Virus record (IMG/VR): IMGVR_UViG_3300047470_000203
Span: 1 to 39,593 of that record
DNA from: a virus
DNA length: 39,593 nucleotides
Strand: one strand, 5' to 3'
Shown here: positions 3,865 to 37,561 of the stretch, piece after piece
Layout: each line of letters begins with the position of its first letter
Numbering within the stretch: position 1 is the first letter of the stretch
Program-made: the position numbers and the translations under genes
Notes under the pieces: model-generated
Database searches by the model: none
Told to the model about the DNA's origin: nothing
What the model saw: only the letters and a program-made list of their open reading frames with translations

Positions 3865-4107
3865 ATGAAACTCACCCTCAACCAGTACCTTGACGAACTG
3901 ATCGTCGCTGCCGGCCTGAAAAACGACGCCGCCTTCTGCCGCTACTGCCGCGTGCATCCGTCCACGCTGTCGAAAATCCGCAACGGGCGGCTTCCCCTTA
4001 CCGCGCTGCTGTTCTGCCGCCTGCACGAGCGCTTGGGCGTGACCATGGCCGAGATTCGGGCGGTCGTCCATGCGCACGATTTCGCCTGCGACTTGCAGGA
4101 GGACTAG
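3865..4107 (+). CDS. Second helix-turn-helix regulator (XRE-like)
   Basis: 80 residues, starting four bases after the previous stop. DAAFCRYCRVHPSTLSKIRN (about 21-40) is a helix-turn-helix of XRE type, followed by GRLPLTALLFCRLHERLG, the usual remaining helices with the pattern seen in many small phage XRE proteins. It might act as a second early regulator. Its stop shares one base with the GTG start of the next gene. Sequence similarity to the first regulator is limited to the fold-level pattern. The exact operator is unknown; the inverted repeats at 3582-3601 are candidates. Confidence 0.68.
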   Translation: MKLTLNQYLDELIVAAGLKNDAAFCRYCRVHPSTLSKIRNGRLPLTALLFCRLHERLGVTMAEIRAVVHAHDFACDLQED

Positions 4108-4538: not shown

Positions 4539-4786
4539 ACATTTACCGTCACCAATTCGTATGCGCCTGCCCCGCCAACAAGCAGCCGATCATCTACCAG
4601 CTTGAAGTGCGGTCGTTGAAAATGATCTACGTCGAGAAAATCGTCGTGGCTTGTCAGATGTGGCAACAGGAGTTCCACGAGAAAATCGCGGACGCTTTGG
4701 AATTACAGTTCCCCGGCACCTTGCAAGTGCTCAAGGCACACCACCATGGCGTCGATATCGAGACGCAGCGCGGTGGTGACGCATGA
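4535..4786 (+). CDS. Unknown 83-residue protein
   Basis: Starts MNIYRHQFVCACPANKQP, overlapping the ninB stop by four bases, and ends overlapping the next start the same way. It has a short N-terminal Cys pair (CAC) and a segment with IYQLEVRSLKMIYVEKIVV, probably beta-alpha. The size and coupling to ninB suggest a nucleic-acid related accessory protein, but no domain is recognised. Confidence 0.6.
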   Translation: MNIYRHQFVCACPANKQPIIYQLEVRSLKMIYVEKIVVACQMWQQEFHEKIADALELQFPGTLQVLKAHHHGVDIETQRGGDA

Positions 4787-5490
4787 CAGTGCATTACCAC
4801 GGAACCCCGATCACGCCGCGCACGGTGCTGAACGAGTTGGGCGGGCGCAACTTCTGCATTTCGTTCTGGAGGCCTGACGATGTGGAAGTGTGCCACCAGA
4901 TCGGCCAGAGCAACATGCTCGACAACGGCGCATTCAGCGCATGGATGGAAGCAATGCGGACGGGTAAAAAATTGAATCTCGATTGGAAAGCGTTTTACGC
5001 GTGGGCCGAAAAGTGGCTTGCATACCGCACCACCTGGGCGGTAATCCCTGATGTGATTATGGGGACTGCGGAGGAAAACGACGCGCTGATTGCTCAGTGG
5101 CCGCACGGCCAGCGCGGCGCGCCAGTGTGGCACATGCACGAGCCAATCGACCGGCTCAAGCGCCTGTGCGACGAATGGGAGCGGGTCTGCATCGGATCGT
5201 CGGCGCAATACAAGGTGGTCGGCGCTGACAACTGGCATCATCGCATGACCGAGGCCATGAACGCGATCTGCAAAACCGGGCGCGTACCGAACTGGCTACA
5301 CATGCTGCGCGGAATGAACGCGTCGCGCTGGGGCTACCCGTTCGCCAGCGTGGATTCGACCGACATTGCGCGCAATCACAGCAACGGCAAGCGCACCGCG
5401 CGCGAAATGGCCGACCGCTGGGACGCGATCCAGTGCTCGCCATTCTGGAAGAAGCAATATCTGCAAGCCGATTTGCTGGAGGCCGCATGA
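4783..5490 (+). CDS. TGT/DpdA-like TIM-barrel protein
   Basis: 235 residues. I do not know a named function, but several blocks look like a small TIM barrel related to tRNA-guanine transglycosylase and the phage DNA 7-deazaguanine transglycosylase DpdA: MLDNGAFSAW (46-55) resembles the DSGGF substrate-binding motif with Asp47; TTWAVIPDVIMGT (83-95) resembles the strand ending in a Pro-Asp; APVWHMHEP (113-121), VCIGSS (135-140) and WLHMLRG (171-177) look like successive barrel strands; FASVDSTDIARN (187-198) offers Asp191 as possible nucleophile. Such enzymes exchange guanine for a 7-deazaguanine base. The gene lies between the ninB group and ninG, overlapping both neighbours. No preQ0 synthesis genes are present. 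It could instead be a barrel with another role. Confidence 0.5.
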   Translation: MTVHYHGTPITPRTVLNELGGRNFCISFWRPDDVEVCHQIGQSNMLDNGAFSAWMEAMRTGKKLNLDWKAFYAWAEKWLAYRTTWAVIPDVIMGTAEENDALIAQWPHGQRGAPVWHMHEPIDRLKRLCDEWERVCIGSSAQYKVVGADNWHHRMTEAMNAICKTGRVPNWLHMLRGMNASRWGYPFASVDSTDIARNHSNGKRTAREMADRWDAIQCSPFWKKQYLQADLLEAA

Positions 5491-9994: not shown

Positions 9995-10228
9995 ATGAAC
10001 AAAGCTGACGCAATCAAAGCCGCAAAAGAAGCCGGCCTCACCGTAACCAAAGAAGTTGCTTGCGGCAAAGGCACTGAATTCATGGTGGGCGAAAAGCGCA
10101 TCCACAACGAGCAGGGCTGCAAGCAGACCTGGAAAGTTGAGGGCAAAAGCGTCGGCGGCGCGACTGTAACCGACTGCATCATGTCGGTGCTCGGCGTGAA
10201 AACCTGGTGCGGTCGCCCTTGGGCCTGA
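9995..10228 (+). CDS. Unknown small protein behind own promoter
   Basis: 77 residues starting MNKADAIKAAKEAGLTVTKE, with RBS CCGGAG. N-terminal helices are followed by a beta-rich part (KGTEFMVGEKRIHNEQGCKQ) and a C-terminal Cys-Trp ending. No domain is recognised. Codons differ somewhat from the neighbours, with more AAA and GAA. Having its own strong promoter suggests high or separate expression, for example an early host-directed factor or a small nucleic-acid binding protein; this is inference. Confidence 0.6.
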   Translation: MNKADAIKAAKEAGLTVTKEVACGKGTEFMVGEKRIHNEQGCKQTWKVEGKSVGGATVTDCIMSVLGVKTWCGRPWA

Positions 10229-10491
10229 TCGGATGCGAATTCTGCGGCTACGAGTTCCCCGAGAACTCGGGCCGCTTCGGATGCCCGAACTGCGAGGGCG
10301 AACCTTTACCGGAGGCCCGCATGGGTGTCAAACGATCAAACGAAATGAAGGCCGCACTCGACCTGGTACGGCAGGGAATGTCTGCTTATGCCGCCGCCAA
10401 GGAGACTGGCATTACCTCGGGCAACCTGTACAAGAGCGCCGAATACCGCGCCATCATCGCAGCACGCAGCACCGCAAAGCCCGCGCAGTAG
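10207..10491 (+). CDS. Zinc ribbon plus helix-turn-helix protein
   Basis: 94 residues if the GTG at 10207 is used, which overlaps the previous gene by 22 bases. The first half has two CxxC knuckles (CEFCGYEF and CPNCEG, about 10-13 and 26-29), a zinc ribbon. The second half, MGVKRSNEMKAALDLVRQGM then SAYAAAKETGITSGNLYKS, is a helix-turn-helix of a type found alone in many phages. A good RBS (GGAGG at 10311-10315) precedes the internal ATG at 10321, so a shorter HTH-only product of 56 residues is possible too. Probable DNA-binding regulator. Confidence 0.55.
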   Translation: MRSPLGLIGCEFCGYEFPENSGRFGCPNCEGEPLPEARMGVKRSNEMKAALDLVRQGMSAYAAAKETGITSGNLYKSAEYRAIIAARSTAKPAQ

Positions 10492-10665: not shown

Positions 10666-10694
10666 TTGACGCTGTTCAACAATCGAATTACATT
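10666..10694 (+). promoter_or_regulatory. Near-consensus promoter before noncoding/tRNA region
   Basis: TTGACG (10666-10671), a 17-base spacer and TACATT (10689-10694) make one of the best sigma70-type promoters in the window. Transcription would start near 10701. No protein gene follows for more than 580 bases; the first products would be the noncoding stretch and the tRNA. Confidence 0.72.
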
Positions 10695-10700
10695 ACAGGT

Positions 10701-11012
10701 GCTGGGCGGCGCGTGAATAACGACCATTCTGGCACCAAATTCGCTGCAACTGACGGTATCGGGCGCGCTGCGGCAGACCCGAGAGAACGGCAGGGCGGCA
10801 CAAGAGCATCTGCAACATGACGGAATCCGGGAGGCTAGTACCCTACCCCGTTAAATCGCGCCTGTCGCGCTAGCGTAAAGGGCCGATGTACGTAGCGGTG
10901 AACGTAGCCTTGCAGAATGACGCAGGGACCGGCGAACGCGGTCCACCAGTTTCAAGTCCTCGCAAGAGGCCGCGCAGCTTGATACCCTCGGCTGCGTGAC
11001 TGTCGATTTTAT
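10701..11012 (+). ncRNA. Candidate structured noncoding RNA upstream of tRNA
   Basis: About 310 bases between a strong promoter and tRNA-Tyr without a convincing gene. Several local hairpins are visible: GGTGC/GCACC (10698-10702 with 10731-10735, crossing the predicted start), TCGGG/CCCGA (10759-10763 with 10778-10782) enclosing a smaller stem, CCTC-GCAA-GAGG (10958-10969), and CGCAGC/GCTGCG (10973-10978 with 10991-10996). It matches no RNA family I recognise. It may be a precursor of the tRNA, a phage small RNA, or a decayed tRNA cluster. A 37-codon ATG frame at 10887 exists, but it has no good RBS. Confidence 0.4.
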
Positions 11013-11105
11013 GGGCAAAAGCCGAATATTGGTTTAAGTCGGCCCGGACTGTAAATCCGGAGTGCGCTAGACGCGGTGATGGTTCGATTCCATCTTTGCC
11101 CACCA
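11013..11105 (+). tRNA. tRNA-Tyr (GTA anticodon)
   Basis: The acceptor stem GGGCAAA (11013-11019) pairs perfectly with TTTGCCC (11095-11101), followed by discriminator A and an encoded CCA (11103-11105). The D-stem is CCGA/TCGG. The anticodon stem CCGGA/TCCGG (11044-11048, 11056-11060) encloses loop CTGTAAA with anticodon GTA at 11051-11053. A long variable arm (about 11061-11077) is typical of bacterial tRNA-Tyr. The T-arm is GATGG-TTCGATT-CCATC. All elements are intact, so the tRNA is probably functional. It is cotranscribed with the preceding noncoding RNA and ends before the terminator at 11159. Confidence 0.95.
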
Positions 11106-11158
11106 CGCTTTACCCGCAGTCGCATCATCTGTCTTTCTCCGTACCAAGCAGACTTCTG

Positions 11159-11190
11159 CCCGCCCTGCGCAAGCTCGGCGGGTATTTTTT
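11159..11190 (+). terminator. Intrinsic terminator after tRNA
   Basis: CCCGCC (11159-11164) and GGCGGG (11177-11182) form a six-base GC stem followed by TATTTTTT (11183-11190). It would stop transcription from the tRNA promoter just before the terminase genes. Confidence 0.78.
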
Positions 11191-11249
11191 CGTGTTGCGC
11201 ATGTGAAGCTTTTTGCAAGGAAAGTAATTCGCAGGGGAAAGATTCGGGA

Positions 11250-11255
11250 TATACT
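11250..11255 (+). promoter_or_regulatory. Possible late promoter (-10 box only)
   Basis: TATACT lies 29 bases before the terminase start and after the terminator. The matching -35 region (TTCGCA at 11228-11233, 16-base spacer) is poor, so it may need an activator. It is the only promoter-like element found in front of the structural block. Confidence 0.35.
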
Positions 11256-11283: not shown

Positions 11284-11685
11284 ATGAGCCTGACCGCCAA
11301 GCAAGAAGCTTTCGCGCAAGCAGTAGCATCCGGCAAATCGCAGTCGGAGGCGTACCGCATCGCCTTCAACGTGCGCGCAACGACCAAGCCAGAGTCGGTC
11401 AATCAAGCCGCATCGAAACTCATGGCAGACCCCAACCTTTGTTCAAGGGTCGCAGAACTGCGCAAGCCCATCGTGGAAGCCGCGCAAATCACCCTCGCAA
11501 GCCACCTGGAACGCCTCAGGGCGCTCTCCGAAGCCGCCGAGGAAGGATCGCAGTACAGCGCCGCTATCAGTGCTGAAATCGCCCGTGGCAAGGCATCTGG
11601 CCTGTACATCGACAAGACCGAGCACAGCGGGCCAGGCGGTGCGCCGATTGCCATTTCGGTCAACTTCGTGAAGCCTTCCGCGTGA
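11284..11685 (+). CDS. terS: Terminase small subunit
   Basis: 133 residues from ATG 11284 (MSLTAKQEAFAQAVASGKSQ). This opening, followed by SEAYRIAF, is the helix-turn-helix DNA-recognition domain of TerS proteins; the rest is a helical oligomerisation region (about 70-105) and a short C-terminal tail. TerS rings recognise the packaging site, often inside terS itself, and activate the large subunit. The gene overlaps the terL GTG start by four bases. The RBS is weak. Family assignment rests on the N-terminal motif and the position directly before terL. Confidence 0.8.
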   Translation: MSLTAKQEAFAQAVASGKSQSEAYRIAFNVRATTKPESVNQAASKLMADPNLCSRVAELRKPIVEAAQITLASHLERLRALSEAAEEGSQYSAAISAEIARGKASGLYIDKTEHSGPGGAPIAISVNFVKPSA

Positions 11686-12947
11686 ACGTCGAGTTCCCGC
11701 ACAAGCTGGAATTCCTGTTTCGGCCAGCCCGCTACAAGGTGGCGCGCGGCGGTCGCGGCTCGGGCAAGTCGTGGAACTTCGCCCGTGCGCTGCTGTTGCG
11801 CTGCGCCGAGCGTCAAACCCGCGTGCTGTGTACACGCGAAGTGCAGAAATCCATTCAGCAGTCCGTTCACCAGCTCCTGTCCGACCAGATCGAGGCAATG
11901 GGCCTGTCCAGCCTGTTCACCATCCTGAACACCGAGATTCAGGGACCGCACGGGTCTGCAATCTATTTTGCGGGCCTGTCGGACGTGACCGCAACAACCC
12001 TGAAATCGTTCGAAGGCGTCGATATCTGCTGGTGCGAGGAAGCGCAGGCCATTTCGGAAAAGTCGTGGAAGATCCTGACGCCGACCATCCGCAAGGCCGG
12101 GTCCGAGATTTGGGTGACGTACAACCCCGAACTGGAGTCCGACGCCACGCACGCGCGCTTTGTCACCAGCCCGCCGCCCGACTGCGTGTCGGTGCTGATG
12201 AACTACAACGACAATCCATGGTTTCCACCCGTGCTGGACGAGGAACGCAAGCACGCCGAGACCACCATGCGCGCCGAAGACTACCGCCATGTGTGGTTGG
12301 GCGAGTGCAAGCCTGCTGTGGAAGGCGCGATCTACTTCGAAGCGATGAGCGCAGCGGCCAAGGCCGAGCGCATCCGAACGGTGCCGCACGATGGCGCGTT
12401 GAAGACCCACGTTGTCTTTGACCTTGGCATGGCCGACAGCATGACGCTGATTCTGGTGCAGAAGGTGGCCAGCGAAATCCGCGTGATCCACTACATCGAG
12501 GGCACGCAACGCATCCTGGCCGACTACAGCGCCGAACTGCGCGGGCTTCGCCTGGACGATCAGCCGATGAATTGGGGTTCGATCTACCTGCCGCATGATG
12601 GTTTCCACAAGCGCCACCAGACCGGCAAGGACGACGCGACCGTATTGCAGGGCTTGGGCTGGACGGTGGACAAGGTGCCGAACGTGGCGGTCAACAGCGG
12701 CATCGACCGCGCCCGCGAAGTGTTCCCGCGCATCTACTTCCACAAAGAACGCGCCGCCCGGCTGGTCGAGTGCCTGAAGCGCTACCGATGGAACATCAGC
12801 GCCAAGACCGGGCAGGGCGTGACGCCGCTGCACGACGAGTTTTCGCACGGTGCCGATGCCTTCCGCTACCTGGCGCTGGTGGCCGACGAACTATCAAATG
12901 ACGAGTGGGGCCAGAAGCTCAACTATCAATCTTTGGGGATTACCTAA
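11682..12947 (+). CDS. terL: Terminase large subunit
   Basis: 421 residues, start GTG. The ATPase has Walker A GGRGSGKS (23-30), Walker B GVDICWCEEA (112-121), and the coupling region AGSEIWVTYNPE (139-150). The nuclease half carries VVFDLGMADS (244-253; Asp247), LPHDGFHKR (303-311), and the terminal DEFSHGADAFRY where the last catalytic Asp lies. This is the PBSX/terminase-3 type architecture of motors that package by the headful mechanism, which agrees with a circularly permuted genome. It pumps DNA into the prohead through the portal and cuts it when full. The portal gene follows immediately. Confidence 0.93.
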   Translation: MNVEFPHKLEFLFRPARYKVARGGRGSGKSWNFARALLLRCAERQTRVLCTREVQKSIQQSVHQLLSDQIEAMGLSSLFTILNTEIQGPHGSAIYFAGLSDVTATTLKSFEGVDICWCEEAQAISEKSWKILTPTIRKAGSEIWVTYNPELESDATHARFVTSPPPDCVSVLMNYNDNPWFPPVLDEERKHAETTMRAEDYRHVWLGECKPAVEGAIYFEAMSAAAKAERIRTVPHDGALKTHVVFDLGMADSMTLILVQKVASEIRVIHYIEGTQRILADYSAELRGLRLDDQPMNWGSIYLPHDGFHKRHQTGKDDATVLQGLGWTVDKVPNVAVNSGIDRAREVFPRIYFHKERAARLVECLKRYRWNISAKTGQGVTPLHDEFSHGADAFRYLALVADELSNDEWGQKLNYQSLGIT

Positions 12948-36715: not shown

Positions 36716-37561
36716 TTAATCGCCGCAGAAGCAGGCGATGGATTCATCTTCGTCGGCGAACAGGTCTTGTTGCGCCAGTGCGTAGTTCAACATCTGCTGG
36801 TAGCTGGGCCGGTCGTTGCGGAATGACCCGCCATTCTCGATTTTGGCGTTCGTGATGCTGCCTTCCTGCCCGATCCACCAGGCCGCACGCGGCGGCTCGG
36901 CCTTGATCGAGGTGAGAACGATGTTCGCGCCCTTGAGGAAGCAAAGGTCGCAGTTGCCTTCCATCGTCACGCCGTTGACGGCGCGCAGGCCGAGGTCGAA
37001 CGGCTGCGACTTCCAGAAGGCTCCAACGTGCTTCTTGGTGACCCCGGCATCTGCCAGCGGCACGGCGCGTTCCGGTCCGGCATGACCGCCGCTCGGGTTG
37101 GCGCGGATTTTAGCGACCCGGCGCGGCTCGTCGGCGCGAATGCCAACCATGTCATCCCAGTCGGTCCAACCAATCGAGCGCAGGTATTCGCGCTGCGGCA
37201 TGATTTTCAGTTCGACCGTGCAGAACCGGGCCATCGGATTCGGCAGGTAGTTGCGCTTTTTAATGATGGCGGCGAATGGCTCGCCGTCGCGGCTGGCCGT
37301 GTCAAAATCGACCAGTGCAAAACCCGCCTCGTCATTGCGGTACTCGATCCAGCGGATCGGCACGCCCCAGCGCTGGCTGCAATCGCGTACGAATTCAAGC
37401 GTTTCCTCGCGCTCCTTACCTGTGTTGGCAAAGCACACCTCGACACCTTCCGGCAACTTGCCGCCATGTGCTTGCAGCACGCGCCAGAGCATATAGGCCG
37501 AGGTGCGCCCGCCAGAGAAGCTGATCGCGGTTGGGCCGTCAATCTTGAACGGGTCAGTCAC
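36716..37561 (-). CDS. PP-loop ATPase / PAPS-reductase-like protein
   Basis: 281 residues, GTG start overlapping the preceding stop. SFSGGRTSAYML (14-25) is the PP-loop of the adenine nucleotide alpha-hydrolase superfamily. Later elements are FANTGKEREETLEFV (44-58), RFCTVELK (112-119), DDMVGIRADEPRR (136-148), NCDLCFLK (203-210), and a terminal CFCGD (277-281). Cysteines 114, 204, 207 and 277/279 could hold an iron-sulfur cluster. Family members activate a substrate with ATP for sulfur transfer or amidation; many phages encode relatives annotated as PAPS reductases. The true substrate is unknown, with a nucleic acid or base precursor possible. Confidence 0.75.
   Translation of the reverse strand: MTDPFKIDGPTAISFSGGRTSAYMLWRVLQAHGGKLPEGVEVCFANTGKEREETLEFVRDCSQRWGVPIRWIEYRNDEAGFALVDFDTASRDGEPFAAIIKKRNYLPNPMARFCTVELKIMPQREYLRSIGWTDWDDMVGIRADEPRRVAKIRANPSGGHAGPERAVPLADAGVTKKHVGAFWKSQPFDLGLRAVNGVTMEGNCDLCFLKGANIVLTSIKAEPPRAAWWIGQEGSITNAKIENGGSFRNDRPSYQQMLNYALAQQDLFADEDESIACFCGD

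Follow-up and report, generated by a model that had tools for sequence, protein, structure and literature searches.

The unit at positions 10666–11194 of the window (the whole 39,593-nucleotide stretch of viral DNA analyzed here) is, on balance of the sequence comparison, best interpreted as a cassette that encodes only RNA and precedes the packaging operon. It is composed of a lineage-specific noncoding RNA, a tRNA-Tyr and a terminator module, held in a slot with apparently swappable contents. A single transcript would start at a sigma70 promoter and run through a leader of ~312 nt, the tRNA-Tyr and a CU-rich double-hairpin module, which would stop transcription. RNase P would presumably cut at 11012/11013, which would yield the mature tRNA-Tyr and set free a leader RNA of ~312 nt. 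The slot between promoter and module would be the site of exchange, where relatives carry other tRNAs or noncoding RNAs. The original prediction of a dedicated RNA transcript at 10666–11190 is well supported by the layout in relatives, the conserved module and the promoters upstream of it. Its parts and the RNA unit stand, but the hairpins as a signal and the word "consensus" for the promoter do not.

Promoter and genomic context

The replication genes of the phage end at ~9.7 kb. They are followed by a few small genes, the promoter, the leader, the tRNA-Tyr, the terminator and the terminase genes, and all parts of the unit are on the plus strand. The next gene downstream is terS (11284–11685, plus strand; phrog_51, E 4.7e-12, searched from residue 2), followed by terL (11682–12947, plus strand; Terminase_3, E 9.7e-36).

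The promoter scan places TTGACG at 10666–10671 and TACATT at 10689–10694 with a spacer of 17 bases. This sigma70-type site (10666–10694) matches nine of the 12 consensus bases, and TACATT matches four of six. Taken alone it is weak evidence, because a simple scan finds three sites scoring as well in 2.4 kb with 0.6 expected. The related phage L002 has TTGACC-17-TACATT at 3888, identical in −10 hexamer and length of the spacer. Of 14 cassettes (window included), 7 have a site of the form TTGACN-16/18-YANNNT in the 700 nt before the module, compared with ~0.8 expected from background; this enrichment is rough and indicative, since several of these loci are closely related. A second promoter-like site, TTCGCA-16-TATACT (11228–11255, plus strand; consensus match only), is located between the terminator and terS.

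Shortly upstream of the promoter, positions 10207–10491 encode a 94-residue protein with a zinc-ribbon-like CEFC..CPNC pair and a helix-turn-helix-like C-terminus, a candidate regulator by sequence. Relatives of this gene do not carry the leader. The uncharacterized family phrog_5086 is present just upstream of the cassette in L001 (268–633), L002 (3463–3891) and L003 (3382–3795); no member was found in the window.

The slot in related phages

With TerL as query, 80 viral relatives were collected, and further ones were obtained via TerS. At the same place upstream of terL the relatives show a promoter, an RNA cargo and the shared 3' module. In L001, the nearest relative by TerL, a promoter is followed by tRNA-Tyr, a structured RNA of ~230 nt and the terminator module. 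A noncoding RNA precedes the module in L002–L008, L010, L018 and L082, several of them with a CACCACA...UGUGGUG stem. The cargo of L009 is two tRNA-Ser, that of L091 is tRNA-Trp with a stem-closed noncoding RNA, and L016 and L020 have the module alone. An Rfam scan of 14 relatives returned tRNA matches only, with neither GOLLD nor ROOL.

The noncoding RNA of L001 is unrelated to the leader of the window. It lies 3' of its tRNA-Tyr, whereas the leader lies 5' of the tRNA. Parts of the cassette have thus been exchanged, because the tRNA-Tyr of L001 is homologous (86% identical) and its RNA is not.

In several cargo RNAs (L001 815–990, L010 165–370, and L002–L007 upstream of the module) a GUGGUG strand has two potential pairing partners, CACCACA upstream and CACC(AC) downstream. 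Two mutually exclusive, switch-like GUGGUG stems are therefore possible. The cargo RNA of L004 (4210–4305) includes a tRNA-like element, TTCACAGC...GGCTGGTTCGAATCCAGC...GCTGTGAA, that is not called by ARAGORN.

The terminator module

The strong terminator that had been predicted after the tRNA is confirmed by reading the sequence by eye. An intrinsic terminator at 11159–11190 has the stem CCCGCC (11159–11164) and GGCGGG (11177–11182), followed by TA and six T (11185–11190). A simple terminator scan missed it because the loop exceeds eight bases.

This terminator forms the end of a CU-rich double-hairpin module (11133–11194, plus strand). Alignment A2 shows the layout in relatives as CTCC, a hairpin, a TTYGCCCG-like stretch and the intrinsic terminator. 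A pattern written after the window and its relatives had been seen has 12 matches in 2.3 Mb (both strands), and 12 of 12 are upstream of terL on the terL strand. The covariance model R2, built from 13 relatives with the window left out, finds 11133–11194 at a score of 20.2 bits. With filters off and after a short calibration, E is 0.0025 over 39.6 kb; the next match has 7.0 bits.

The module resembles the Rfam families RF02278 and anti-hemB (RF02837), both CU-rich double hairpins with a terminal terminator. RF02278 is a betaproteobacterial "toxic small RNA" of which several copies are expressed in Burkholderia. It aligns to window positions 11134–11191 with 21 bits and to L001 995–1056 with 29.7 bits, both below the gathering score of 50. 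The RF02278 layout of a CU-rich stretch and two hairpins, the second being the terminator, is present in the window with a weak first hairpin and is matched by R2. In the cassettes, in contrast, the module would form the 3' end of a longer transcript carrying tRNA or noncoding RNA cargo. Of 56 genomes of the probable host class, 11 contain RF02278-like sequences below the cut-off, which makes it plausible that the module came from a host.

The leader

The leader (10701–11012, plus strand) is a noncoding, orphan sequence of ~312 nt. Its longest sense open reading frames have 35 and 37 codons. Leader-wide mean codon scores are negative in all six frames, and the best 96-base window reaches +0.16, whereas most of the phage's known genes, read in their own frame, score between +0.17 and +0.56. 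A translated search against relatives gave nothing beyond one match of 24 residues (E 0.03). The claim that these ~310 bases hold no plausible gene is thus upheld, and a decayed protein gene is unlikely, given the absent codon signal and the lack of a convincing translated match.

The hairpins are a different matter. The folding energy of the leader is −114.2 kcal/mol compared with −116.0 ± 4.6 for shuffled sequences (z +0.38), and sub-windows of 60, 100 and 150 nt scatter around z 0. The several hairpins that had been taken as a signal are uninformative, because any sequence of this length with 60% GC yields such hairpins. A possible 5'-terminal hairpin, GGUGCUGGG...UUCUGGCACC (10698–10736, plus strand), is located at the predicted transcript start in the minimum free energy fold of the whole transcript; its z-score is not significant. 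The RNAs of L003, L006, L007 and L015 also have z near 0, and that of L001 has −3.7 to −4.25. A functional leader RNA therefore remains compatible with z ~0.

No match to the leader, GOLLD and ROOL included, reaches the gathering score in Rfam 15. At E ≤ 10 the only noteworthy matches in the window are the tRNA and the terminator module, and nothing falls inside the leader, in agreement with the first impression that it belongs to no recognized RNA family. The search proposed there for a decayed tRNA or a known structured RNA found neither: ARAGORN with relaxed thresholds calls no tRNA on the sense strand of the leader, and Rfam gives no tRNA match in it. Homologues are absent from phage and plasmid records, from the fetched loci (searched with blastn or nhmmer), from the complete records of 30 related viruses, and from 2.9 million viral contigs searched with three oligonucleotide patterns; records very close to the window may be missing from these sets. 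The probable host class, covered by 369 genomes, gave one 28-base match in G340, which was judged to be chance.

Since there is neither excess folding stability nor a homologue, selection on the sequence or fold of the leader is without support. A structured or folded functional RNA is likewise not supported at the sequence level (no homologues, covariation or excess folding energy). Most likely the leader would act as a separate RNA, as its position suggests.

A phage RNA family, motif C

The RNA of L001 contains a motif, here called motif C, that reads GUGGUGAAYGCGCAGGCUGAUGCGC, a highly variable insert and GCCGGAGAUCAGCACCGGCCACCAC. Its core can also be written as GGUGAAYGCGCAGGCUGAUGCGC...GCCGGAGAUCAGCACCGGCCACC; the closing stem covaries and the insert is hypervariable. 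Motif C loci include L001 885–995, L010 232–374, L012, L015, L047, L178–L295 and phage HK620 (L297) 2501–2594. The exact 23-mer is found in at least 120 viral stretches, at least 109 of them distinct by core. A blastn search with the L001 unit returned 147 phage records at E ≤ 0.1, mostly via motif C.

In alignment A1 (32 sequences), 41 cells of the motif C structure are changed on both sides compared with 16.0 ± 3.0 after shuffling, all of them in the closing stem; 94% of the cells pair compared with 25–54% in slid controls. The hairpin loops AGGCUGAU and AGAUCAGCA are complementary and able to pair with each other. This loop-loop pairing is unproven because the columns hardly vary. No family of Rfam 15 reaches its cut-off for motif C. 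It thus appears from sequence to be an RNA family that is widespread among phages and missing from Rfam 15, possibly described before in catalogues of candidate phage RNAs.

In HK620 and HK633 motif C is part of the late leader, downstream of Q/pR' and ahead of the lysis genes, and in swi2 it adjoins tRNA-Met. A tRNA within ~400 nt on the same strand is present at eight of the 97 motif C loci with enough flank; ~1.5 would be expected from tRNA density. The HK620 form occurs in 108 of 5,426 E. coli genomes and is mostly unannotated among the matches listed. A search of 114 host genomes gave no motif C and, run without a positive control, is uninformative.

The leader of the window is ruled out as a member of motif C by the score of the motif C model, R1. 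Its best match in the window has 6.5 bits and is outside the leader; matches overlapping the leader or tRNA have 2.5–2.8 bits, and complete motif C matches in relatives have 67–83 bits. The leader does contain GGUGAACG (10897), the hairpins CCUUGC[AGAAUGAC]GCAGGG and GGACCG[GCGAACG]CGGUCC, and CACC. This is the order of the elements in motif C; R1 gives no score there. The arrangement is a weak pointer to a motif C-like RNA.

Other elements were observed near motif C. In the late leader of HK620 (2286–2318), GCAAACGAAGAAATGTATCTGGCCGTAGCTTAA reads ANEEMYLAVA*, similar to a tmRNA tag, and is overlapped by weak tmRNA and permuted-tmRNA Rfam matches below cut-off. A tRNA-like D-arm/T-arm in the variable insert, or a T-arm-like element just before motif C, is seen in L238 (3949 onward), L181, L192, L200, L210 and L216.

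The tRNA-Tyr

The intact tRNA-Tyr of the original prediction is recovered by ARAGORN as a cloverleaf at 11013–11105 (plus strand) with anticodon GTA. The 3' end is ACCA, and therefore CCA is encoded. Its homologue in L001 is at 698–790. Among the relatives, only L001 shares a tRNA-Tyr in the slot, and a tRNA-Tyr pattern matched one viral relative, the contig of L001.

Positions 4783–5490 of the window encode a queuine tRNA-ribosyltransferase-like protein (phrog_887, E 2.7e-52; no Pfam match) in the same phage as the tRNA-Tyr(GUA), and tRNA-Tyr(GUA) is a natural substrate for queuosine. A phosphoadenosine phosphosulfate reductase-like gene is located at 36716–37561 (phrog_424, E 4.4e-51).

Besides the replacement of damaged host tRNA, codon supply is the other standard role of phage tRNAs. 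The counted late genes have 85 TAC and 32 TAT among 5575 codons, which does not decide the role of this tRNA. Most likely it would supply tyrosine tRNA late in infection or, by analogy, replace host tRNA-Tyr destroyed by defense nucleases. A phage tRNA-Tyr expressed from a strong promoter rescues phage from retron-Eco7, whose PtuAB degrades host tRNA-Tyr (PMC11555353), and Septu is reported to cleave tRNA-Tyr (PMC13096335).

Discussion

The proposed cassette shares features with several known phage RNAs. GOLLD and ROOL are noncoding RNAs of phages and prophages that are often found near tRNAs; in GOLLD the 3' region is conserved and the 5' region variable, and the linker sometimes contains tRNAs (PMC12286853). 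Both have Rfam models, which match neither the window nor its relatives, and both are much larger, with many GOLLD above 800 nt; any fold of the leader, in contrast, is putative. The put RNA of HK022 is likewise a structured nascent RNA of phage leader regions; it measures ~70 nt, has two stem-loops and lies downstream of early promoters (PMC9378689). The leader of the window is longer, and its folding is putative.

More narrowly, the leader could be a structured phage RNA of a new kind that does what the motif C RNA of L001 does; it would then be one among several unrelated RNAs swapped via the promoter-cargo-terminator slot beside tRNAs. This is tentative and we give it a limited chance.

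The main rival to the cassette is late-leader antitermination, because several relatives and HK620 have terminators before and behind the cargo. The unit would then correspond to the lambda arrangement of pR', 6S RNA and tR'. A late promoter would produce a short, terminated leader with the tRNA, and an antiterminator would allow readthrough into terS and the late genes. As in lambda, a promoter, a noncoding leader and a terminator precede the late genes directly, and HK620 has a structured RNA in its late leader: a motif C-family RNA between the annotated pR'/qut and the terminator tQ, ahead of holin S. Terminators flank the cargo on both sides in L002, L003–L006, L009, L018 and L082, with a promoter-like site in several. 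The window, however, has neither an early terminator nor an identified antiterminator, and the upstream genes searched give no Q-like PHROG or Pfam match, although a weak or novel antiterminator may be present. The Q-like reading frames of L002 and L005 belong to an uncharacterized PHROG and have no convincing match in the window. Additionally, the promoter-like site at 11228 follows the terminator. This arrangement is thus unlikely for the window.

Less likely still is a leader without any function of its own, a filler or decayed gene separating promoter and tRNA. The lack of homologues and of excess folding would fit such a sequence, but no translated match to relatives exceeds the single one described above, phage genomes are compact, and apparently functional RNAs are kept in the slot of the relatives. 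A DNA packaging site (cos or pac) recognized by TerS is very improbable: such sites lie just upstream of terS in some phages, and the region adjoins terS and has small direct repeats (e.g. CGATGTACGTAG/CGGTGAACGTAG at 10884–10907), but the repeats are few and short, the record has no exact terminal repeats, and, although the terminator module is kept, the sequence here differs wholly among relatives whose TerL is related.

To our knowledge, the roles of phage tRNAs and large noncoding RNAs are mostly unknown. The function of motif C is testable in isolated enteric phages that carry it, HK620 among them. For the RNA cassette, the slot offers a clean deletion test. Furthermore, a fixed 3' module with exchangeable cargo before the packaging genes would provide a defined place for a systematic search of phage RNAs.
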